Source: Nitrospirota bacterium
GTDB taxonomy: Bacteria; Nitrospirota; Nitrospiria; Nitrospirales; Nitrospiraceae
DNA length: 64,000 nt
NCBI GenBank assembly: GCA_026387665.1
Contig: JAPLLG010000003.1
Location: forward strand, 186,001-250,000
Reading direction: 5' to 3'
Position 1 is the stretch's first letter, and every line of letters begins with the position of its first letter. The notes beneath the pieces were generated by a model. That model was not told the origin of the DNA. It did no database searches and was given only the letters and a program-made list of their open reading frames with translations. The position numbers and the translations under genes are program-made. Below are positions 3,762-37,081 of this stretch, piece by piece.

Positions 3762-4439
3762 TCACCGACTCTCTGCCTCGAGATGCAGGCCATGAGCGGC
3801 CAACTGTTCCGCAATGACGCCTCGCTCGATGGCTCCCTCGCGAACGATTCTGATCGGCCCCCGAACGTCGACGACCGTAGACGGGCGCCCGCCAGGCGTC
3901 AGTCCCGCATCGACGATCAGATCGACCTCTTCACCCAGGTTCGCCTGAACCTCTTCGGCCCTGATTGGCGGCGGAAGGCCTTCCCGATTCGCGCTGGTGC
4001 CGGTCACAGGCCCGACCTGCCGCAAGAGATCGACCAGCGGCTGGCAGCCACTCAGGCGAATGCCCACTGAACCAGTTCCCGCCGTCACGGCATCAGAGAG
4101 CGCCACAGCTGCGGGAAAGACAATCGTCAGCGGTCCGGGCCAGAAGGCGTTCATCAAGACGGTGGCAGCCGGGGGAATCGTCTGAACCAAGGGAGCCAAT
4201 TGAGACTGGTCTCCAATCAGGAGAAGAATCGGTTTTCCCTCGGAGCGGCCCTTGACCCGCCATAACCTGGCCAGAGCCTGTTCGTCGAAGGGGGCTACCG
4301 CCAGTCCGTAGAAACTTTCTGTCGGCAACACGCAAAGGCCGCCCGCTCCGAACAGGCGGCGCATCTGAGCGACAAGCACCGGAACGGTCGAAGCCACATA
4401 ACGCTCGATCTGTGCCATGGCAGGAACCATCAGTCCCAT
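3762..4439 (-). CDS. tsaC: L-threonylcarbamoyladenylate synthase (Sua5/YciO/YrdC family)
   Basis: Makes threonylcarbamoyl-AMP from threonine, bicarbonate and ATP, the first step of t6A37 modification of ANN-decoding tRNAs. The YrdC-domain signature is clear: VLPTESFYGLAVAPFDEQALARL, KGR near residue 63, FWPGPLTIVF, a GSVGIRLSGCQ segment and TGTSANREG. At 225 aa it is the short TsaC form without the Sua5 C-terminal domain. It starts six bases after purD ends, so it is in the purine operon. The first seven residues may not be translated, since internal ATGs follow closely. Confidence 0.92.
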   Translation of the reverse strand: MGLMVPAMAQIERYVASTVPVLVAQMRRLFGAGGLCVLPTESFYGLAVAPFDEQALARLWRVKGRSEGKPILLLIGDQSQLAPLVQTIPPAATVLMNAFWPGPLTIVFPAAVALSDAVTAGTGSVGIRLSGCQPLVDLLRQVGPVTGTSANREGLPPPIRAEEVQANLGEEVDLIVDAGLTPGGRPSTVVDVRGPIRIVREGAIERGVIAEQLAAHGLHLEAESR

Positions 4440-4445
4440 TCTGCG

Positions 4446-5723
4446 TTATGTTGCGTGACGTGCGAACGCCCGGTGCGCTATATCATTCCGGTAATGCGCG
4501 CCGTCAAAGGCAATCGACCGGGTCACGCGATAGGCTTCCGCTTGCGCGACAGCCAGGGTCTTCCCCAATCCTGTAATGCCCAGCACCCGCCCTCCGGCCG
4601 TCACCACCTCGGCGCCGGTTCGTGCTGTGCCTGCATGGAAGACCACCGTCGTCGCATCTGGCGCAGCAGGCAATCCATGAATCGCTCGACCGGTTGGATA
4701 GGAGCCGGGGTACCCTGCCGACGTCATGACGATACAGACCGCCGTGGCATCATGCCACTCGACGCTCAGCTGATCGAGCCGATGTTCGACCACCGCCTCG
4801 ATCACCTCCAGCAAATCCGTCTTGAGCAACGGGAGGACGACTTGCGTTTCCGGATCTCCCATCCTGGCATTGAACTCCAACACGTAGGGTATCCCCTTCA
4901 CAACCATCAGGCCCGCATACAAGACGCCTTGAAAGGGACAACCCATGCGAGACAGGGCCTCGACGGCTGGATAGAGCACCTGCTTCGTAACCTGTTCGCG
5001 CAGAGCTGCAGTACCAAGCGGAGCAGGGCAATAGGCGCCCATGCCACCCGTATTGGGACCCGTATCACCATCGCCGACCCGTTTATGATCTTGTGCCGGC
5101 AGCATCGGCACCACCGTCCGGCCATCCGTGAAGGCCATGATCGTCAGTTCTTCGCCGTCAAGAAACTGCTCGATCAATACGCGCTGACCGGCCTGACCAA
5201 ATACGGCATGTTCCATCGAATCGCGGACGGCCTGCTTCGCCTCCTCGCGGGTCGTCGCGACCACCACGCCCTTCCCCTGCGCCAGTCCATCGGCCTTCAC
5301 CACCACAGGCAGTTCGTGCTGATCGAGATAGGCCAAGGCCGGAGCGAGCTGATCGAAGCTTTGCGCCTTCGCTGTGAGGATCTTCGCGCTGGCCATGATC
5401 TCCTTGGAAAAGACCTTGCTGGCTTCGATGCGAGCGGCGCCCTTTGTCGGGCCGAATATTTTCAGTTTGGCTTTACGGAACTCGTCGACGATGCCCAGCG
5501 CCAGCGGCGCTTCCGGCCCCACGACCGTCAGATCGATCTGCTCCGACTGCACGAAGGCTTTCAGTCCGGCAATATCGTCGGCTTTGATTGGCACGCAGGT
5601 CGCGAGGGATTCGATTCCCGCATTGCCCGGCGCACAATAGAGCGTGGGCTTGCGGGGACTTTGCGCGAGCTTCCACGCCATCGTGTGTTCTCGCCCCCCA
5701 CTCCCGATGACAAGAATCTTCAC
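4446..5723 (-). CDS. purD: phosphoribosylamine-glycine ligase (GAR synthetase)
   Basis: ATP-grasp ligase of purine synthesis joining phosphoribosylamine and glycine. The N-terminus [19 protein letters not shown] is the conserved N-domain. The ATP-grasp core follows with [16 protein letters not shown] and [13 protein letters not shown], then [21 protein letters not shown] and [20 protein letters not shown]. At 425 aa it is normal. It lies downstream of purH on the same strand, 166 bp away, with a palindromic repeat in the gap, and six bases before tsaC. A long open frame on the opposite strand here is a shadow of the GC-rich codon pattern. Confidence 0.97.
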
Positions 5724-7678: not shown

Positions 7679-8548
7679 ATGTCCTTGATGATGCGTGCAG
7701 CGATTCTTGCAGCAGGGGTTGTGGCACTTGGCCTCCTTGCCGTCCTCTGCTTCCCGCGCCATCTTCCGTCACCGGCTGCCTCGACCTCCCTGACCCAGGC
7801 CACATTTCATGCGCGTTTCGAGCAGGGCATTCTGACCCTCCGTGGCTCACTCCCCACTGAGTCCAGCAAAGCCGCCATCCTGCACCAGGCCCAACAGCTG
7901 TACGGCTCTGCACCTGGCCGCCTGATCGACCAGCTGACGGTGGATCCGGACCTGAGACCGGCAGCCTGGGCAGAGCAGATCCCCGCGATGCTCCCCGTTT
8001 TAGGGCAGATGACCGAGCGAGGCTCGATCATCATCGACGGTCGTTCAATCGTGCTGAGCGGCCGCGTCGACAACGATCAGGTCAAAGCTACTGTCCTGCG
8101 CGACATTGACCCTCTCGTGCAAGCTGGGCTCAATCTGGAAGATTACATTCTGACGGCTCCGCACCAGGCCGCAGCAGTCCCGCTCCAGAAAAAATTGACG
8201 GACCTGCTCTCGCACGCCTCCATCGAGTTTGACTCGAATACCGCCACGCTGACGCCGCGCGGCCGCGCCACACTCGACCGGTTGACCGCACTGTTACAGG
8301 AGACCCCCCAGACTGCCATCGAGATCGGCGGCCATACGGACAAATACGGCGCCCCCGGCTATAACCTTGAACTCAGCCGCCGCCGGGCCGAAACCGTGCG
8401 ACGCTACTTCCTCAATCACAGCCTGACCCATCAATTCACCACCGTCGGCTATGGCGCCTCACGGCCCCTGTCGGCCGCACAAACGAAAGCCGGCTTTCAA
8501 CACAACCGCCGCATCGAATTACGAGTGAAAGGACCGGGCCCTCTATGA
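7679..8548 (+). CDS. OmpA-family protein with BON-like periplasmic region
   Basis: 289 aa. One N-terminal membrane segment (about residues 5-25) is followed by a region with two BON-like beta-alpha units (FEQGILTLRGSLPTES and GRSIVLSGRVDN) and a C-terminal OmpA peptidoglycan-binding domain (IEFDSNTATLTPRG, IEIGGHTDKYGAPGYN, LSRRRAETVRRYF, GASRPL, NRRIELRV). The layout resembles mycobacterial ArfA-type BON-OmpA proteins: a membrane-anchored protein reaching the cell wall. No clear ribosome site precedes ATG 7679, so one of the ATGs at 7688 or 7691 may be used. Its stop overlaps the next gene by ATGA, so the two are coupled. Confidence 0.85.
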   Translation: MSLMMRAAILAAGVVALGLLAVLCFPRHLPSPAASTSLTQATFHARFEQGILTLRGSLPTESSKAAILHQAQQLYGSAPGRLIDQLTVDPDLRPAAWAEQIPAMLPVLGQMTERGSIIIDGRSIVLSGRVDNDQVKATVLRDIDPLVQAGLNLEDYILTAPHQAAAVPLQKKLTDLLSHASIEFDSNTATLTPRGRATLDRLTALLQETPQTAIEIGGHTDKYGAPGYNLELSRRRAETVRRYFLNHSLTHQFTTVGYGASRPLSAAQTKAGFQHNRRIELRVKGPGPL

Positions 8549-29023: not shown

Positions 29024-30124
29024 TCAGGATCCTGCCAAGCTCGGATAGTCGGTATAGCCCTTCTCAGTCCCCCCATAAAAGGTTTCGACCTGAGGCACGT
29101 TCAAGGGAGCGCCCTTGGCAAACCGTGCCGGCAAATCAGGATTGGCCAGGAAGAGCCGTCCGAAGGCAATGAGATCGGCCTCGCCTTTGGCAAGAGCCGC
29201 CGTCGCTCGCTCGTAGGTATAGCAGCCACAGACCATGTAGATGCCGCCAAAGAGATCGCGTAAACGGTGAAAATCGACCGATTGCCCGGTCGTGACCCCG
29301 GACTGATCCATCTCCACCGCATGCAGATAGGCCAGTTTAAGGGCACCGAGCTTCTTGGCCACATAGCCGAATGTTGTGTCAGGATCGAAGTCCTGCATGC
29401 TGTTGAATGGGTTGACCGGCGAAATCCTGACTCCGACCCGATTCACGCCCCAGACCTGCGTGACTGCCTCGACCACTTCAAATAGCAATCGCGCACGGTT
29501 TTCAATCGAGCCGCCGTAGGCATCGGTGCGATGGTTTGACCCGTCGCGCAAGAACTGATCGAGAAGATAGCCATTGGCGGAATGGACTTCGACCCCGTCG
29601 AATCCCGCCTCCAGCGCATATTGCGCGCCCTGGCGATACTGGGCCACAATCCCCGGAAGCTCCGCGAGATCGAGGGCCCTGGGCGTGACGAAGGGCTTGA
29701 GCCCTTCATAAGTGATGGCATCGCCTTCCGGCTTGATCGCAGAGGGGGCCACAGGAAGAACCCCGCCAGGCTGCAACGACGGATGGGAGATGCGCCCCGC
29801 ATGCCAGAGCTGCAAGAAGATGCGCCCGCCCTCTTGATGCACCGCCTCGGTGATCGCGCGCCAGCCCTTCACTTGTTCGACAGAATGGATGCCGGGCGTA
29901 TTCGGATAGCCGACCCCTTCCAGGCAGACCTGCGTCGCCTCGCTGATGATGAGGCCAGCCGAGGCCCGTTGCCGGTAATACAGCACATTCATCGGTTGCG
30001 GCACCTGCCCCTGCCCGGCGCGATTGCGCGTCAACGGCGCCATCACGATCCGATTGCGCAGCTCATAGGGCCCTACCTGTATCGGAGTAAACAGATCGAT
30101 CCCCTGTTTCATGCGGTATCCCAT
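29024..30124 (-). CDS. old yellow enzyme family alkene reductase
   Basis: 366 aa, FMN-dependent TIM barrel. Family features: FTPIQVGPYELRNRIVMAPLTRNRAG; QLWHAGRISHPS; the active-site pair in GFDGVEVHSANGYLLDQFLRDGSNHRTDAYGG; and GRLFLANPDLPARFAKGAPLN. It matches the NemA/OYE class that reduces activated alkenes, nitroesters or related electrophiles with NAD(P)H. The start may be at 30124 or four codons later (30112), where a weak GGGA site lies upstream. It is upstream of nnrS in the same orientation. The exact substrate is not determined. Confidence 0.92.
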   Translation of the reverse strand: MGYRMKQGIDLFTPIQVGPYELRNRIVMAPLTRNRAGQGQVPQPMNVLYYRQRASAGLIISEATQVCLEGVGYPNTPGIHSVEQVKGWRAITEAVHQEGGRIFLQLWHAGRISHPSLQPGGVLPVAPSAIKPEGDAITYEGLKPFVTPRALDLAELPGIVAQYRQGAQYALEAGFDGVEVHSANGYLLDQFLRDGSNHRTDAYGGSIENRARLLFEVVEAVTQVWGVNRVGVRISPVNPFNSMQDFDPDTTFGYVAKKLGALKLAYLHAVEMDQSGVTTGQSVDFHRLRDLFGGIYMVCGCYTYERATAALAKGEADLIAFGRLFLANPDLPARFAKGAPLNVPQVETFYGGTEKGYTDYPSLAGS

Positions 30125-30216
30125 TTCATGTGAAAGATAGCGTGGTTGTCCTCATGCTCAGTCCCGCTACCGAGATGGAGCAGAGCACAGGAGAATAACA
30201 CAGATGGAGCGTGGGC

Positions 30217-30272
30217 GGCCCGATTACTCCCCTTGCTCGCGCAACGCGCGCAGTCAGGGAGTAAATCAGGCC
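30217..30272. repeat. family B palindromic repeat, copy B1 (short)
   Basis: Outer arms GGCCCGATTACTCCC and GGGAGTAAATCAGGCC are an almost perfect inverted repeat. The centre TGCTCGCGCAACGCGCGCAG joins the two halves of the family B core with the middle missing, as if deleted between short CGCGC repeats. Copy B2 at 32507 has the same arms with a 129-bp longer centre. It is part of the 507-bp gap before the methyltransferase-like gene; the rest of that gap is non-coding. Confidence 0.8.
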
Positions 30273-30391
30273 ACCTTGAGGGAGGGGTGGAAGAACTTAC
30301 AAGCCTATCTCCTTCACGCTTCGTCGCCTACGGCGCAACGGCGCATCGTCTCGGCAATCGATGTGTCGCGGAAGAAAAAATGGTAGGACTA

Positions 30392-30418
30392 CCGGCAGGA
30401 TCAACTCGCGGTGATTTC
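30392..30418 (+). repeat. family C direct repeat, copy C1
   Basis: CCGGCAGGATCAACTCGCGG followed by TGATTTC. The same block occurs at 31740 and 32842 in the same orientation, so it flanks the methyltransferase-like gene on its left side. Confidence 0.7.
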
Positions 30419-30527
30419 ACAAAACGATCCCCCACCATCTGCCAGGTCGCAGAACGAGATCATCCGACGGCCCAACCGGCTCTAGCGCATGCAGATTTCA
30501 GCTCTAGTCCGCACATGCATATAGCCA

Positions 30528-30556
30528 ACTAGGCATTCCACTAGGCATCATTGACA
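30528..30556 (+). promoter_or_regulatory. operator-like direct repeat and -35 box upstream of the methyltransferase-like gene
   Basis: ACTAGGCAT occurs at 30528-30536 and again at 30540-30548 with a three-base spacer, followed at 30551-30556 by TTGACA, a perfect -35 hexamer. An inverted CCTAGT lies just downstream. No good -10 is seen at the expected distance. The arrangement looks like a repressor or activator site about 75 bp before the start codon. Confidence 0.4.
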
Positions 30557-30631
30557 AAATGGCCCTAGTGACGTAGTTCACTGTCCAATTGCTTAGACAC
30601 CTCAGCTATCGTCCCTCCGGAAGGAGCCTTG

Positions 30632-31696
30632 ATGGTTGCAGAACTCTCCGAGTGGTCGCAGTACCTCAGCGCACCGATCGATCCACAGGCCGTGGAGGAC
30701 CGTCGGACCCAATGCGACGCCGCCTTTCGTGACCAGCAGGACAATCTGATCAAATGCTATCGCACCTTCAAACCCAAGACGATTGCCTGCATGGGCGCCG
30801 GCTGTCTCACCGACATACCAGTTGACGTATTTCTACGCGGCGGCAGTCGCGTCGCGCTCATCGATTGGATTCCTCAAATTACCGAACTCGGGTTTCAACG
30901 CGACCTCGTCCGGCGCGATGGCAACAAATATGCGTGCCTGGTGTGCGAAGTGGAGACCTGCCCTGAGCAAGTCTGCCAAGGATTCGCGAAATCCCAGTCC
31001 CGTCGCGGCGGGGTCTGCGATAATTTCCGCCTGAGCGACAACCCCTCTTGTTGCCGATGCGCAGGATACAAGGCGGGCCCTTCGCCTCTGTTTCTGACCG
31101 CCGAAGTCACGCAGGGACGGGCCGGCCAGTTTGCGCAACGCATGACCGCCGCCGCCCTGACCTGTGACACCGCAGCCCAATGTTTCCAAAAGGCGATCGA
31201 CGTCTGCCACGACTGTGCCGAAATTCGCGAGGAGCTCCCCCTCCCGACCGGCAGTATCGACCTCGTCACATCGTCGATGGTCGTCTCGCAGTTCGAGTAC
31301 GAACCCTACGGCTTCTTCTCAAAACTTTTGGCTCGCCGCTATGGGGCAAACGCCCTGCGACACGACACAGCACTCATTCCGCTGATGGAAACGCTACGAA
31401 CAAAACTGTTCGAGCTGTTAATGGACGCGCATCTGTCTGAAATCTACCGTGTGGTGAACAAAGACCATGGCAAGGTTTATTTCTCCGTCGAGCTGTTTTC
31501 CTCACAGCCCCAGCCGGAGAAGGATCAGTACTTCCTCGTCCAAGGAATGCCCCAAGTGCTCGAAAAGCTCCGCACCCTGTTCCTGTTCGATTTCTCGGTC
31601 ATTCCCCTTCAACGCGCCTACCGACGCACCAAGATGGGAGCCCAATCCTCCATCATCCAGTCCTACGTCCTGACGCCCATCCCTGCCAGCCCGTAA
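30632..31696 (+). CDS. methyltransferase-like protein with a cysteine-cluster insert
   Basis: 354 aa. ATG 30632 has AAGGAG five bases upstream. IACMGAGCLTDIPVDVFL followed by an acidic VALIDWIP resembles motif I and post-I of a SAM-binding Rossmann fold; GSIDLVTSSMVVSQFEYEP fits motif IV. Between them an insert holds eight cysteines (C102, C105, C110, C115, C129, C140, C141, C143), enough for a zinc or Fe-S site, and it seems to replace part of the usual fold. No catalytic motif decides the reaction. It is flanked on both sides by the same direct repeat (family C), and appears to be its own module. Confidence 0.65.
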   Translation: MVAELSEWSQYLSAPIDPQAVEDRRTQCDAAFRDQQDNLIKCYRTFKPKTIACMGAGCLTDIPVDVFLRGGSRVALIDWIPQITELGFQRDLVRRDGNKYACLVCEVETCPEQVCQGFAKSQSRRGGVCDNFRLSDNPSCCRCAGYKAGPSPLFLTAEVTQGRAGQFAQRMTAAALTCDTAAQCFQKAIDVCHDCAEIREELPLPTGSIDLVTSSMVVSQFEYEPYGFFSKLLARRYGANALRHDTALIPLMETLRTKLFELLMDAHLSEIYRVVNKDHGKVYFSVELFSSQPQPEKDQYFLVQGMPQVLEKLRTLFLFDFSVIPLQRAYRRTKMGAQSSIIQSYVLTPIPASP

Positions 31697-31708
31697 AGAC
31701 AATCCATG

Positions 31709-31766
31709 ATATGTGAGGGGAGGATCGATCAGTAGTATCCCGGCAGGCTCAACTCGCGGTGACTTC
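31709..31766 (+). repeat. family C direct repeat, copy C2
   Basis: This copy has a longer matching context than C1: ATGATATG and a purine-rich GAGG stretch, then CCGGCAGGCTCAACTCGCGG and TGACTTC. Copy C3 at 32811 shares the same leading ATGATATG. It sits between the methyltransferase-like gene and the toxin-antitoxin pair. Confidence 0.7.
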
Positions 31767-31830
31767 CAAACGACTACGCCCCATATCCCGCACGTAGCGC
31801 CAGCCTTGCCGGGCATGAGGCGATCTGCTA

Positions 31831-31853
31831 TTGTCTATACAACTGCCATACAA
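31831..31853 (+). promoter_or_regulatory. operator-like repeats upstream of the antitoxin gene
   Basis: CTATACAA and CCATACAA are spaced 11 bases apart, and TTGTCTATACAA is itself palindromic. Phd/YefM antitoxins bind such short repeats to repress their own promoter. The ribosome site TGGAGG follows at 31854-31859. Confidence 0.4.
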
Positions 31854-31865
31854 TGGAGGCCTGAC

Positions 31866-32147
31866 ATGAGCGGGACGAATCTAGTACGAAAAGCGAAGCC
31901 GGTCAACGTGCGAGACGCCCAAGCGCAACTCTCGAAGCTGATCCGCTCGAAATCCCCCACGATGGTCCTCTCCCATGGCAAACCGGTGTCGTTCCTTGTC
32001 CCTTACGAGGACATGCTGAACTTGGTCGACACCCTCAATGAGTTAAAAGACAAGAAGCTGCTCGGGGAAATCGAACGGGCACGGATCGAGTATAGGCAGG
32101 GAAAAGCAGTCCCTGCGGAACGGCTCTTCAAGAAAATGGGGTTCTAG
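31866..32147 (+). CDS. Phd/YefM-type antitoxin
   Basis: 93 aa. The start is ATG 31866, with TGGAGG six bases before; the longer open frame from 31713 includes repeat sequence and is not supported. VNVRDAQAQLSKLI and LSHGKPVSFLVPYEDML are the Phd/YefM fold signature that dimerises and binds the operator. The charged C-terminus should wrap around the toxin. It is followed without a gap by the RelE-type gene (stop TAG, then GTG at 32148), a normal antitoxin-toxin order. Confidence 0.85.
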   Translation: MSGTNLVRKAKPVNVRDAQAQLSKLIRSKSPTMVLSHGKPVSFLVPYEDMLNLVDTLNELKDKKLLGEIERARIEYRQGKAVPAERLFKKMGF

Positions 32148-32447
32148 GTGGAATACGACGTCGTCTTCCCGAGCGAACGGGTCGAACGTCTCTTCCAGAA
32201 GACATTGGAAAAGATTCCCACAGACTACAGTGCCGCGATCATCGCCGCCGTCAGATCGCTCAAAAGCAATCCCCAGCCTCAAGGCAAGCGCACCAAGAAG
32301 CTGGTCGGAGAACTCATCGTGTCCCGATTCACCGCTGAGTATCGGCTGCGAGTCGGCCCCTACCGGGTACTGTACGATATCGACGACCAGCGCAAGAAAG
32401 TCGTCCTCCTCAAACTTGCCAAGCGCGACGACCAGACCTACGGCTAG
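32148..32447 (+). CDS. RelE/ParE-family toxin
   Basis: 99 aa starting at GTG 32148. The fold signature is at the C-terminus: AEYRLRVGPYRVLYDIDDQRKKVVLLKLAKRDDQTYG, where Arg, Tyr and Lys match the RelE/YoeB mRNA-binding and cleaving residues. ParE members share this pattern, so the target could be mRNA at the ribosome or gyrase. It is directly coupled to the antitoxin. The pair may act in plasmid-like maintenance of this island or in phage defence (inference). Confidence 0.85.
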   Translation: MEYDVVFPSERVERLFQKTLEKIPTDYSAAIIAAVRSLKSNPQPQGKRTKKLVGELIVSRFTAEYRLRVGPYRVLYDIDDQRKKVVLLKLAKRDDQTYG

Positions 32448-32506
32448 CAGCCACCAGAAGAAAAGAGCATATGGCTGATGGCGTATGGCTCGAAACGAAG
32501 AGGGGT

Positions 32507-32691
32507 GGCCTGATTACTCCCCCTGCTCGCGCAACGCGCACGGCTTGTCTGTCTGGTTGGCTGGTCTTTCTGGTCTTTCTGGTCTGTCTGGTTCTTCTGG
32601 ACAAATTTCTAGTCCGACTAACCAGATAGACGAGATAGACCAGATGAACCAGCACTCGTTGGACGCGCGCAGTCAGGGAGTAAATCAGGCC
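32507..32691. repeat. family B palindromic repeat, copy B2 with extra hairpin
   Basis: Same outer arms as B1 (GGCCTGATTACTCCC and GGGAGTAAATCAGGCC) but with a central insert. The insert holds a 9-bp tandem run based on TCTGGTCTT and an imperfect 24-bp stem: 32570-32593 pairs with 32620-32643 at 21 of 24 positions. It replaces the CCTTCTGAG middle of copies B3 and B4. It makes up most of the non-coding 32448-32921 gap together with C3. Confidence 0.85.
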
Positions 32692-32810
32692 GCCCCAGAG
32701 GGAACGAAAAAAGATCCAACAAGCCTACGCGGCGCAATCTCAATGGACACCCTGCTCCTCCGGCGAGTTGCGCTCAGGCTCCGCCACCCTTTGAAGGAAA
32801 GTAACCGATG

Positions 32811-32868
32811 ATATGAGAAGGAGAAATCCAGCAGTCAGCGTCCGGCAGGCTCAACTCGCGGGGATTTC
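32811..32868 (+). repeat. family C direct repeat, copy C3
   Basis: ATGATATGAGAAGGAG, a spacer, then CCGGCAGGCTCAACTCGCGG and GGATTTC. It resembles C2 over about 58 bases, so the toxin-antitoxin pair plus B2 lies between two direct repeats. Confidence 0.7.
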
Positions 32869-32921
32869 AAAAAACAGTTATGTTCCCAAGTCACGAAACA
32901 AAAACTTCAGCCCCTTTGTTT

Positions 32922-33848
32922 CTACCCAAGCACATCCTGCACACCTAGCGTCAGGAGGTTCAGCGCTTCTGAACTAAACCGTTCAGGACACTTGAGATAT
33001 AGCTGCATTAACCGCCTCAAGGCATCCTCAAGCTTGGTTGTTAACTCAAGCTCCTTATCGGTCAACTCCCTCATTAAATTGCCGTGAGCCAACTCACTTC
33101 GTAAAGTGTAGCCCTCACGGAGCTGTCGGAACTGCTGCACGCGCAACTGGCTTGGAGGCTCAAGCATCCATGCCCCTCGCAAAGCCATTTTGAATGATAG
33201 ATAAGAGCGCTCCCTCTCCCCCCTTAACAGTAATTGCTCCAGCCCAAAAACTAGGTGTGCGAGTCGGTCATCATTGTTCAGCTCAAAATAAGCCTTGTTG
33301 AACCAACGCATACCAGGCTCGGACTCCAAATCCCTGTGCCAATATTTCTCGAAAAACTTCCCAATACCTTTAAGGGTCTCGGAATTGATCGCATAGCTGT
33401 GGGGATACTTCGGCCGACGCAAGGCGGGGATATACTCAATTTGCGCGAGCGTATACCCATAAGGAACTGCCGGAGCTAGCGGCACAATTGCAAGCCGTGC
33501 ACCAATTGGACCACATTGAGCTAGCCGCAGTAGCGTGACTCCCTGGCGAATAAGATTGCCCCCGATTTCCCGCACATAGTTCAGATGAGAATTCCAAGCG
33601 TCGTTTTGGCCCGTTACATCCTGAGAAGGAAGCCTCATCTCTAAGCAAACGATCTCGGCGGGGAGTTCACCAAGTCCAAATCCAAACCTTTTTCCGCCAC
33701 TGAGGTCGCGATTGATCGTCGACATCTCAATTGGCTCAAGGTTCCGCAAGACGACATCCTTGCACAACTCAGTTCGCTGAATTGCCTCGATAACACCATC
33801 TAGCGGCGCAAGGATACTCGGATACATGGAATTCGTTGATGTGCCCAT
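32922..33848 (-). CDS. HEPN-domain protein (Apea-like)
   Basis: 308 aa. The C-terminal half is a helical HEPN domain: WFNKAYFELNNDDRLAHLV, GLEQLLLRGERERSYLSFKMALRGAW, and YTLRSELAHG, which has the RNase motif R-x4-H (R250, H255). The N-terminal half (about 1-160) is mixed beta and unrecognised. The domain order fits ApeA-type abortive-infection proteins, but this one is shorter. The gene is more AT-rich than its neighbours and lies between the repeat/TA region and an IS3 element, as expected for an acquired defence gene. RNA cleavage is inferred from the motif. Confidence 0.7.
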   Translation of the reverse strand: MGTSTNSMYPSILAPLDGVIEAIQRTELCKDVVLRNLEPIEMSTINRDLSGGKRFGFGLGELPAEIVCLEMRLPSQDVTGQNDAWNSHLNYVREIGGNLIRQGVTLLRLAQCGPIGARLAIVPLAPAVPYGYTLAQIEYIPALRRPKYPHSYAINSETLKGIGKFFEKYWHRDLESEPGMRWFNKAYFELNNDDRLAHLVFGLEQLLLRGERERSYLSFKMALRGAWMLEPPSQLRVQQFRQLREGYTLRSELAHGNLMRELTDKELELTTKLEDALRRLMQLYLKCPERFSSEALNLLTLGVQDVLG

Positions 33849-34144
33849 AATTACCTATGCAACTCCGGCAGAATGAAGATCGATGCACAGTTATGAAAAT
33901 GCTGCACACTCCACCGATCCATGCAACGACTAGCCATAATTCAGACCGACAGCAGGCTACGCCTCACGAAGAATTGCGTCAACTCGCGAGGGGGAAGTGA
34001 AGACTCCAATCCTCACCCCTTGGGTTGTTCTATCCCTCCCCGTTTCCACCCTTCCCCCAATAGGGAGTGGCCGGACGTCCTTCGGGTTCTGCCCCGCTTT
34101 TACGGACACCTGATTACGGCTCATAATGAGCCAGGAGGGGTGTC

Positions 34145-34432
34145 ATGGGAGCACGACGGAAGTTTTCAGCCGAGTACAAACGTGAAGCAGTGGCGATGTT
34201 GGAGTCACCGGGGGTGACGGTGAGCCAGATCGCCGCAGACCTAGGTATCGGGGCCAATGTCCTGGGGCGATGGTGCCGCGAGTTGCGTCAGGAGCCCAAG
34301 CCGGCGTTTGTCGGCCACGGGCGATCCCGAGATGAAGAGATGAGCCAGCTCCGTCGCGAGTTGGTCCGGGTGACGAAGGAGCGGGATTTTTTACGAGAAG
34401 CGGCAGCGTTCTTCGCGAGAGCGTCGAAGTGA
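34145..34432 (+). CDS. IS3-family transposase OrfA
   Basis: 95 aa. The N-terminal helix-turn-helix (RRKFSAEYKREAVAMLESPG followed by VTVSQIAADLGIGANVLGRW) binds the inverted ends. A short leucine-zipper-like stretch follows (MSQLRRELVRVTKERDFLREAA). ATG 34145 lies near GGAGGGG. A TTTTTTA slip site at 34387-34393 in the zero frame, as T-TTT-TTA, could move ribosomes into the OrfB frame. Confidence 0.92.
   Translation: MGARRKFSAEYKREAVAMLESPGVTVSQIAADLGIGANVLGRWCRELRQEPKPAFVGHGRSRDEEMSQLRRELVRVTKERDFLREAAAFFARASK
34387..34393 (+). other. programmed -1 frameshift site in IS3
   Basis: The heptamer TTTTTTA is read as T-TTT-TTA in OrfA (codons Phe-Leu). From it the -1 frame is open without a stop through 34429, where OrfB begins. 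This would give an OrfAB fusion, the real IS3 transposase. Confidence 0.75.
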
Positions 34433-35298
34433 AGTATCGGATGATCCAACGATGCCGCAATGCCTTTCCCATCCGCTTGATGTGTCGGTGTTTGCGCGTG
34501 TCGGCCAGCGGGTATTATAGCTGGGCGACGCGGGTGCCGAGTGCACGGAACCAGGAGAACGCCCGGCTCCTCACCCGGATTCGTCAGCTCCATGCTGATT
34601 CCGACGGCGTCATTGGGAGTCCGCGGATCTGGGAGGATCTGCGGTACGCCGGTGAGCGATGTGGGCGCCACCGGGTGGCCCGTCTGATGCGCCGCGCTGG
34701 CTTGCGCGGCCTCCCGCAGCGGCGACGCTGGCGCACCAAGCCGTCTGGGACACCGCCGGCTGGAACCCGCAACCATTTGGAGCGAGACTTCACCGCCACC
34801 GCGTCCAATACCGAATGGGTCACCGATATCACCTATGTGCGGACCGCCGAGCACTGGCTGTACTTGTGTATCGTCCTCGATTTGTATTCCGGGCTCGTGG
34901 TGGGCTGGTCCATGAGTGCGCGGCAAGATTGCCCGCTGGTCGTCCAAGCCGTCCTCATGGCGATCTGGCAGCGGCCCACCCGGACCCCGGTCATTCTCCA
35001 TTCCGATCGGGGGTGTCAGTTTACCTCGGCGGAATACCAGCAGTTCCTGGCGGCCCACCAGGTGACCTGTAGCATGAGCATGGTGGGCAGTTGTGCCGAC
35101 AATGCCGCGGCGGAAAGTTTCTTCGGCGTCCTCAAACGGGAGCGGGTCAATCGGCGGCAGTACCAGACGCGAGCCGAGGCGAGAGCGGATATCTTTGATT
35201 ACATCGAGCGCTGGCACAATCCCCGGCAGCGGCGGAGACTCGATCAGCAGCACCAGGGGGAGCAACTCTTAACTCAACCGTCCGTGGAAATGGGGTAG
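34429..35298 (+). CDS. IS3-family transposase OrfB (DDE integrase)
   Basis: 289 aa, rve-type catalytic domain. Catalytic DDE: first D in WVTDITYVRTAEHWLYLCIVLD, second in LHSDRGCQFTS, and E in ADNAAAESFFGVLKRERVNRR. The N-terminus (MCRCLRVSASGYYSW) is the usual OrfB extension. It starts at GTG 34429, four bases before the OrfA stop, and is in the -1 frame relative to OrfA. Full length and intact. Confidence 0.93.
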   Translation: MKYRMIQRCRNAFPIRLMCRCLRVSASGYYSWATRVPSARNQENARLLTRIRQLHADSDGVIGSPRIWEDLRYAGERCGRHRVARLMRRAGLRGLPQRRRWRTKPSGTPPAGTRNHLERDFTATASNTEWVTDITYVRTAEHWLYLCIVLDLYSGLVVGWSMSARQDCPLVVQAVLMAIWQRPTRTPVILHSDRGCQFTSAEYQQFLAAHQVTCSMSMVGSCADNAAAESFFGVLKRERVNRRQYQTRAEARADIFDYIERWHNPRQRRRLDQQHQGEQLLTQPSVEMG

Positions 35299-35300
35299 AA

Positions 35301-35361
35301 CCCTTCACTGCGCGCGTCGAACGAGCACCTTCTGAGCGTGCGCGTTCCGCGAGCAAGAAGG
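35301..35361. repeat. family B repeat, copy B3
   Basis: ACTGCGCGCGTCGAACGAGC, CCTTCTGAG and GTGCGCGTTCCGCGAGCA form the family core; CCCTTC and GAAGG are its outer arms here. It abuts the right end of the IS, so the insertion may have targeted the repeat edge. Confidence 0.7.
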
Positions 35362-35452
35362 ACGGCTGGCTGCTCCCTATCTATAGTTTTCTGCCCTCCC
35401 AGGTGTTAAAACATAGCTCCATCTGGTGCCTTGATTAAGAGAAGGAAATTCT

Positions 35453-37081
35453 ATGTCTTTGCCGATCGAAAAATCGTCGTCGTCCGATGAATTAGCGCGA
35501 GAAGTCGCGCGGCGACGCACCTTTGCCATTATTTCGCACCCGGACGCAGGAAAAACCACCCTGACAGAAAAGCTCCTCTTGTACGCCGGCGCGGTCCACC
35601 TGGCCGGGGCCGTGCATGCGCGGTCGAATCAGCGCGCCTCGAAGTCGGACTGGATGGAGCTGGAACAGGCGCGCGGCATCTCCATCACCTCCACCGCCTT
35701 GCAGTTCGATTACGAGGGAGTGCGGGTCAACCTGCTCGATACGCCAGGCCACCAGGACTTCAGCGAAGACACCTACCGCACCCTCATGGCCGTAGATAGC
35801 GCCGTCATGGTGCTCGACAGCGCCAAGGGCATCGAACCCCAAACTAAGAAACTCTTTGCCGTCTGCCGCAAACGCAACATCCCCATCATGACCTTCATCA
35901 ATAAGATGGACCAGCCGGGACGCCATCCCTTCGAACTGCTCGAAGAGATCGAGCAAACCCTGGGCATGACGGCAGTCCCCTTCAATTGGCCCATCGGGGA
36001 AGGGTCCGGCTTTCTTGGGCTCTATGACCTTCAGGACCCCCAAGTCCTCTTCTTCCAACGGACGGCCCATAACCAGAAACGGGCCCCGATGCGAGTCGAG
36101 ACCTTCCCCCACCCAAGCCTGGCCGAGACCCTTGGAGAGGCCTATGGTCCGCTCCAAGAAGAGATCGCCCTGCTGACCGGCGCCGGTGCCAAGTTCGATC
36201 GCGACCGTTTTCTCGCGGGCCAACTTACGCCGGTCTTCTTCGGAAGCGCCCTGACGAACTTCGGCGTCGAACCATTCCTGAACGGGTTCCTCCGGCTTGC
36301 GCCACCGCCAGGCCCTCGCATGAGTTCCAAGGGACCGGTCCAGCCAACGGACGAGCAGTTCTCCGGGTTCGTGTTCAAGATTCAGGCGAACATGGACCCG
36401 CAGCATCGCGACAGAATGGCATTTCTCCGTATCGTATCAGGCCGTTTTGAAAAGGACATGATGGTCCATCACGCGCGGCTGGACCGGAAGATTCGCATGA
36501 CGAGACCGCATCGGCTCTTCGGTCGTGACAGGGAAACCATCGATGAGGCCTACCCCGGCGACGTTGTGGGACTGGTGAATCCAGGCCTCTTTGCCATCGG
36601 GGATACCCTCTGCTCCGGCAGTCCCCTCGCCTTCGATGCGATCCCGCTCTTTCCCCCGGAATGTTTCGGCGTGCTCCGAAGCCAGGACCTCACGAAGCAG
36701 AAGCAGTTCCAGAAGGGACTCCAGCAGCTGGAAGAGGAAGGGGTCATGCAGGTGTTCTATTCACCGGACCATGTGCGGCGGGAACCGGTCTTGGCCGCAG
36801 TCGGAGAACTCCAGTTCGATGTGGTCGCCTCGCGGCTCGACAGCGAATATGGGGTCAAGGCCACGGTCGAACGGATGCCCTTCGTCCTGGCCCGCTGGGT
36901 CACGGGTGAGCCGGACGCGATCGCCCGCATCTACTGGCCGCAGGACACCAGACGGCTCGTGGACAAGGATGGCAGGATGGTGATGCTCTTCGGCTCGGAA
37001 CGGCTCCTCGCCTACTGCATGAAGGAATATGCGTCGCTCAAGTTTCAGTTGCGGGAAGAAATCGGAAAGATAGAAGCCTGA
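35453..37081 (+). CDS. prfC: peptide chain release factor 3
   Basis: GTPase that recycles RF1/RF2 from the ribosome after peptide release. 542 aa, slightly longer than the E. coli protein. G1 is ISHPDAGKTTLTEKLLLYAGA, G3 is LLDTPGHQDFSEDTYRTL, and G4 is TFINKMDQPGR. RF3-specific blocks are present: QARGISITSTALQFDY and, near the end, QFDVVASRLDSEYGVKA. The start ATG 35453 has a weak AAGAGAAGGA region upstream. The gap to the IS holds only repeat B3 and 91 bp of non-coding DNA. Confidence 0.95.
   Translation: MSLPIEKSSSSDELAREVARRRTFAIISHPDAGKTTLTEKLLLYAGAVHLAGAVHARSNQRASKSDWMELEQARGISITSTALQFDYEGVRVNLLDTPGHQDFSEDTYRTLMAVDSAVMVLDSAKGIEPQTKKLFAVCRKRNIPIMTFINKMDQPGRHPFELLEEIEQTLGMTAVPFNWPIGEGSGFLGLYDLQDPQVLFFQRTAHNQKRAPMRVETFPHPSLAETLGEAYGPLQEEIALLTGAGAKFDRDRFLAGQLTPVFFGSALTNFGVEPFLNGFLRLAPPPGPRMSSKGPVQPTDEQFSGFVFKIQANMDPQHRDRMAFLRIVSGRFEKDMMVHHARLDRKIRMTRPHRLFGRDRETIDEAYPGDVVGLVNPGLFAIGDTLCSGSPLAFDAIPLFPPECFGVLRSQDLTKQKQFQKGLQQLEEEGVMQVFYSPDHVRREPVLAAVGELQFDVVASRLDSEYGVKATVERMPFVLARWVTGEPDAIARIYWPQDTRRLVDKDGRMVMLFGSERLLAYCMKEYASLKFQLREEIGKIEA

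Follow-up and report, generated by a model that had tools for sequence, protein, structure and literature searches.

The 64-kb stretch of Nitrospirota DNA analysed here (the window, from a genome of 2.64 Mb) carries, between a gene of the old yellow enzyme (OYE) family and prfC, an array of accessory modules separated by copies of a repeat designated C. On balance, this array is probably a hotspot of gene exchange, conserved in the Nitrospira lineage and situated upstream of prfC, in which C stands at the module junctions and exchange is driven by homology. C is restricted to the locus, its copies share a common orientation, the modules between them differ among genomes, and one block shared by two genomes is bounded by two C cores. 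That C is the cause of exchange, and not a mere marker of junctions, is likely, and the route of exchange would be homologous or short-homology recombination.

The array runs in the order OYE, B1, C1, a methyltransferase-like (MT) gene, C2, a Phd/ParE-RelE pair, B2, C3, a HEPN-like gene, D, a REPIN with an IS3-family insertion, and prfC. The order proposed in the initial annotation is real, with the C cores, B arms and named genes where it had placed them; its list of repeats was right about three C copies on the same strand and about the likeness of the B arms, but C is longer than the 27 bp it gave, its B3 belongs to one split REPIN, and D had been overlooked. The features, in window coordinates, are:

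29024-30124, minus strand: OYE family gene (PF00724), left border of the array
30213-30275, no strand: B1, a REP/REPIN arm pair, member of a genome-wide family
30392-30418, plus strand: C1 core; hidden Markov model match of the longer unit at 30299-30468
30629-31696, plus strand: MT-like gene, 355 aa, module 1 (Methyltransf_11 E=0.0063, below cut-off)
31740-31766, plus strand: C2 core (unit 31649-31795)
31866-32147, plus strand: Phd/YefM-like antitoxin gene, module 2 (PF02604 E=1.6e-4, below gathering cut-off)
32148-32447, plus strand: ParE/RelE-superfamily toxin gene, module 2 (PF05016 E=4.8e-8; PDB 3g5o_B, E=0.0019)
32503-32694, no strand: B2, REP arms enclosing an inserted repeat-rich hairpin
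32842-32868, plus strand: C3 core (unit 32746-32927), with a gamma-type left flank
32922-33848, minus strand: HEPN-like gene, 308 aa, module 3 (R-x4-H motif, RSELAH at residue 250)
33948-33989, plus strand: D, a degenerate C-like repeat (TCAACTCGCG) ending the array
34063-34083, no strand: left part of the IS3-interrupted REPIN
34084-35303, plus strand: IS3-family insertion in two frames (PF01527/PF00665; NF033516 in both frames, above cut-off for the second), with TTC on either side
35307-35378 (about), no strand: B3, right part of the IS3-interrupted REPIN
35453-37081, plus strand: prfC, fixed right border of the array

The three 27-bp C cores in the window, all on the plus strand, compare with 0 expected by chance, and no fourth copy occurs elsewhere in the genome; the genome-wide search for C suggested in the initial annotation returned these three copies, all at the locus, and not a random spread. 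Relatives comprised 32 genomes of the genus and 175 of the family, all drafts that break at repeats and whose gene calls are based on open reading frames (ORFs); relatives in the named collection are Nitrospira. With a sequence-only covariance model, C gave 46 matches in 24 of the 32 genus genomes. Flanking genes placed 37 of them, in 20 genomes, and all 37 lie between the DUF3422/NnrS/PilZ-response-regulator/OYE side and prfC and share the orientation of prfC. The other nine are on short contigs, are weak or, in one case (G027:C49), appear to lie away from the prfC locus. A second genus of the family (g19) has three matches, one of which has a gene of this left flank some 5.6 kb away; in a sister-genus genome (L227, 745-1445) a C unit lies behind a DUF4411 gene. 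No C copies were detected at the prfC loci of more distant Nitrospira.

The modules between C copies vary by genome and include OmpA pairs, a DUF2321 trio, Abi_alpha, NHL, THAP4-like and GGDEF-EAL genes, a metallophosphatase, SPFH, glycosyltransferases, and PIN-like and toxin-antitoxin (TA) genes; they are typically small, with one to three accessory genes on either strand. The OYE gene is a conserved left border in the three nearest genomes (DNA identity 89-90% in L221 and L265). One of these relatives, genome G030 (about 90% DNA identity), was read together with a second contig. L221 runs from OYE through a C unit like C3, here adjoining a different gene of HAD type, to a contig end formed by IS30; L075, whose prfC protein is 99% identical, starts in the same IS30 and continues with the other part of a HAD gene, D, a REPIN and prfC. 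The HAD and IS30 labels are our reading of the sequence, made without profile matches. The likely joint order, read from the two contigs, is OYE-C-HAD-D-REPIN-prfC, from which it follows that the 2.6-kb part B1-C1-MT-C2-TA-B2 would be absent and the HEPN-like gene replaced between C and D. The HAD gene of L221/L075 appears to be interrupted by the IS30-like element, a parallel to the IS3 within the window REPIN.

In L265 (genome G150), the order is OYE, a HigBA pair (our reading of two ORFs), C, MT, C and a REPIN. Homology with the window is broken after OYE, resumes at 30393 (base 2 of the C1 core) and ends at 31767 (1 base past the C2 core), and the left half of C1 is absent; for a 1375-bp block placed at random, the chance that each end comes no more than 5 bp from a core edge is p=0.003. 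Identity between the window and L265 at fourfold sites is 0.85 for MT and 0.73 for the adjacent part of OYE (Fisher p=0.02), and since MT is the more alike, the module was probably exchanged after the two lineages split. Comparison of related genomes, as the initial annotation had proposed, thus found the B1-B2 stretch absent, HEPN replaced by HAD and a block shared from core to core, and the gain and loss of modules between repeats that it had suggested, together with their replacement, is borne out for C by G030 and G150. A fixed chance arrangement, in which repeats are scattered and the order is identical in all strains, can hardly be entertained; B alone is scattered, and the arrangement is refuted by the confinement of C to the locus and by the differing module order of relatives.

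Alignment of the relatives' copies indicates that C consists of the core and conserved flanks, a unit of about 90-180 bp (up to about 180-200 bp in the alignment) that extends beyond the 27-bp block first described. Conservation is highest from about -40 to +46 around the core, with a column entropy of about 0.6 bits in the core vs 1.0-1.4 bits in the flanks. On the left side several classes can be told apart: some copies have a REP linker, some another hairpin, some follow a response-regulator-like gene, and in others the flank is just the 3' end of the gene before. On the right side there are three classes or more. Left and right classes combine variously around one core; 51 pairs of copies are alike on the left only, 5 on the right only and 15 on both sides. 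A hairpin-like element (AGAGCCCTTCGCTTCAACGCC...) recurs just left of C copies, in L078 (5300-5420), L221 (reversed, about 7940-8060), L087 (about 2850-2930) and L090 (about 5370-5450).

A core far better conserved than its flanks, flank classes that combine differently around it with many one-sided pairs, and the core-to-core G150 block lacking the left half of C1 would also fit C being acted on in trans by a site-specific recombinase not yet described, that is, an integron-like array built of other parts in which the core is the crossover and the flanks belong to the modules. This alternative is rather unlikely; its more specific form, in which C is the recombination site of a cassette system whose modules are swapped core to core within a single chromosomal array by a recombinase encoded elsewhere, is slightly more doubtful still. 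Pfam scans of module proteins revealed no recombinase or integrase (several further modules were read by eye only), and the four PF00589 matches of the own genome, on contigs C8, C9 and C13, are all off the locus (serine integrases were not searched genome-wide). C also shows neither dyad symmetry nor a conserved fold, breakpoints do not fall at one nucleotide (see below), and the C core was not found in viral contigs or plasmids with exact patterns and blastn. In the own genome, a tyrosine recombinase remnant with two stops lies at a contig end (G000:C13:164-535). The integron integrase profile TIGR02249 stays below cut-off there and exceeds its curated cut-off in 2 of the 32 genus genomes (G008:C10:192882-193826 and G015:C280:2834-3772), in both on contigs other than the C-bearing ones.

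Other identities for C were considered. The initial annotation had noted that none of the repeats resembles attC sites; for C this holds, as an attC or other hairpin is ruled out by 0 consensus R/L box pairs and by DNA folding z-scores of -0.56 to +1.7 (10 copies). A dif site is likewise ruled out (the best 11-bp dyad has 5 matches, equalled by 917 of 1000 shuffles). Searches of the C, B and D regions against Rfam gave nothing beyond chance. A coding function was rejected: although core positions 9, 18 and 21, which vary, fall on third codon bases in one frame, several copies have their frames interrupted immediately ahead of the core, and stops follow.

Whether junctions favour C was assessed from the ends of long homologous stretches across 23 loci, with 2000 randomisations. 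Breakpoints at C numbered 44, vs 21 expected for uniform positions (0/2000 rotations). Judged from these sequence comparisons, modules turn over between C units at the prfC locus; because an intergenic control shrinks the excess, the role of C as cause is graded as likely. The initial annotation's suggestion of recombination between repeats accordingly stands for turnover at C, but as a mechanism it is a proposal, the excess over intergenic positions being modest.

Several points weigh against homology-driven exchange at C. Relative to random intergenic positions, the excess of breakpoints is modest both over a wide interval (44 vs 31; 20/2000) and over a narrow one (21 vs 14.6; 113/2000), and breakpoints range from about -65 to +118 relative to the start of the core, with no single point. 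C copies within one locus are often just 70-80% alike outside the core, and such similarity makes a poor substrate for RecA. The block shared from core to core is a single case, from a genome that is 54% complete and filed in another genus, and the difference in age between MT and OYE is modest. The joining of L221 to L075 is based on 149 identical bp of IS30.

That the intergenic control absorbs much of the breakpoint signal would be expected if C were an old non-coding unit, such as the downstream region of the native response-regulator gene or a small regulatory element. Such a unit would have undergone tandem duplication along with its neighbourhood and would do no more than mark intergenic space, modules being brought in by ordinary recombination between homologous flanks. 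In L077, L078, L079, L114, L174, L215, L219 and L220, one and the same kind of response-regulator-like gene is immediately followed by a C copy, and a common orientation would follow from tandem duplication. Such an origin is possible, if distinctly the less probable course; it predicts neither a shared block that begins at one C core and ends at the following one, nor unrelated left flanks, nor a core conserved within decaying flanks. The scatter of breakpoints fits short-homology recombination, and the conserved core, swapped arms and G150 block fit a site-specific system.

If exchange is homology-driven, as favoured here, C units would serve as short shared homology, with a core of 27 bp and a wider unit of about 100 bp. 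DNA arriving from relatives would recombine either from one C copy to another or from a C copy to one of the fixed flanks, and deletion between direct C copies could remove modules, so that gain, loss and replacement between related genomes would leave module junctions at or near C cores. REPINs and IS3 would be later guests in the array.

For the B repeats, which the initial annotation had included among the elements of exchange, a special part of this kind is not supported: a genome-wide search for the B core gave scattered, not locus-specific, copies. Because B arms recur at least 40 times across the own genome, B1-B3 are members of a REPIN population, whose traits they share, being palindromic pairs in intergenic DNA with many copies per genome (PMC3116915). 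That description fits B only; C is confined to the locus and has no hairpin. B2 (window 32540-32660) contains a repeat-rich hairpin of CTGGTCTTT units and their complement between its REP arms, with kin at several other genome sites, e.g., G000:C7:443534 and C2:23311. B3 is one REPIN in which GGGAGTGGCCGGACGTCCTTC at 34063-34083 resumes at 35304 past the IS3, with TTC on either side; the REPIN is uninterrupted in L078. The insertion has the traits of its family (OrfA with a helix-turn-helix and OrfB with a DDE domain in two frames, a TTC duplication, and the empty site in L078), and a second copy elsewhere in the own genome, 96% identical, lies outside any REPIN. D (CAGGCTACG...GCGTCAACTCGC) is a more degenerate relative of C that stands near the prfC end in several genomes (before prfC in L075, L078, L082 and L085) and ahead of C in others.

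C and RAYT elements may be linked: in L250 (1204-1930), a RAYT-type gene has on either side, inverted, the sequence found to the right of certain C copies (AATGGTTCCTGACACCTTTTT). L114 has, relative to L079, an extra C-bearing segment of about 270 bp beside a REP arm, and in the sister genus a comparable end motif adjoins the core of the C copies. An origin of C and D as what is left of a mobile element, REP-like or RAYT-associated, that inserts one way at this site is nevertheless improbable; RAYT genes are present in 19 of the 32 relatives, and none was found in the own genome or in the modules examined. A REP family would moreover disperse as B does and C does not, C has no hairpin, and RAYT-bearing genomes, as the searches suggest, have no C outside the prfC locus.

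Among the modules of the window, the Phd/ParE-RelE pair is a genuine type II TA module, with adjacent genes matching PF05016 above and PF02604 below cut-off; the antitoxin is 95% identical to its L078 counterpart. The MT-like 355-aa ORF is uncharacterised, its methyltransferase match being sub-threshold, and is present in just 2 of the 175 family genomes. The HEPN-like gene has no match in Pfam, NCBIfam or PADLOC and was called from its R-x4-H motif only. Predicted structures of both proteins were too poor for use (pLDDT 40 for the HEPN-like model), and both identities are putative. The "defence-like" content claimed earlier is therefore upheld for one TA pair, but HEPN and MT are unsupported by profiles and PADLOC gave no match to the window modules, which leaves the label a thin one. 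In a relative, the Abi_alpha module corresponds to PDC-S47 in PADLOC.

In its working the array resembles an integron array or a set of pdif modules, yet it does not pass on the features tested as defining for either. With integrons and integrase-less cassette clusters (CALIN) it shares small modules, several of them TA, one-way repeats, a fixed site and swapping between relatives, and, as for integron cassettes, modules are delimited by sites and exchanged between genomes, albeit in few cases; it differs in that the own genome has no integron integrase, C has no attC-like fold or symmetry, and modules lie on either strand. The pdif (Xer) modules of Acinetobacter similarly have 27-28-bp sites flanking small modules, often TA, with no recombinase in the module. 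A dif site, however, consists of two 11-bp arms, with inner inverted repeats on either side of 6 bp; in the pdif module that was described first, the flanking copies were inverted (PMC6449649). C differs from such sites in that it has no dyad symmetry, always one orientation, and a single chromosomal locus.

Islands and integrative and conjugative elements (ICEs) may accrete in tandem at one att site, as at the SXT/R391 hotspot in prfC. The present array resembles such accretion in its direct core repeats with differing arms and in having prfC as the neighbouring housekeeping gene, but its modules show no integrase, and C is situated upstream of an intact prfC and not in the 5' end of that gene. 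In L101, a second stretch (4367-4768) matches prfC residues 1-143 (74%); it precedes the full prfC gene by about 860 bp, the kind of trace that insertion of an element at the start of prfC would leave. Integrase-free hotspots whose content is swapped by flanking homologous recombination also exist, and these share with the array fixed flanks, variable content and the lack of a recombinase; to our knowledge, none has been described with a locus-specific, one-way repeat at its module junctions. In neutral terms, the array comes closest to an integrase-free exchange hotspot whose boundaries are marked by a one-way repeat dedicated to them.

Bacteria acquire defence and TA genes at hotspots, and most known modular arrays rely on a recognisable recombinase or site (IntI/attC, Xer/dif or island integrases). 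In the Nitrospira lineage of nitrifiers, such an array is maintained with a one-way repeat of its own that is restricted to the locus, and no enzyme is visible. Short repeats may by themselves suffice for a cassette array, or else an unrecognised recombination system is at work; both possibilities can be tested at the sites listed here.

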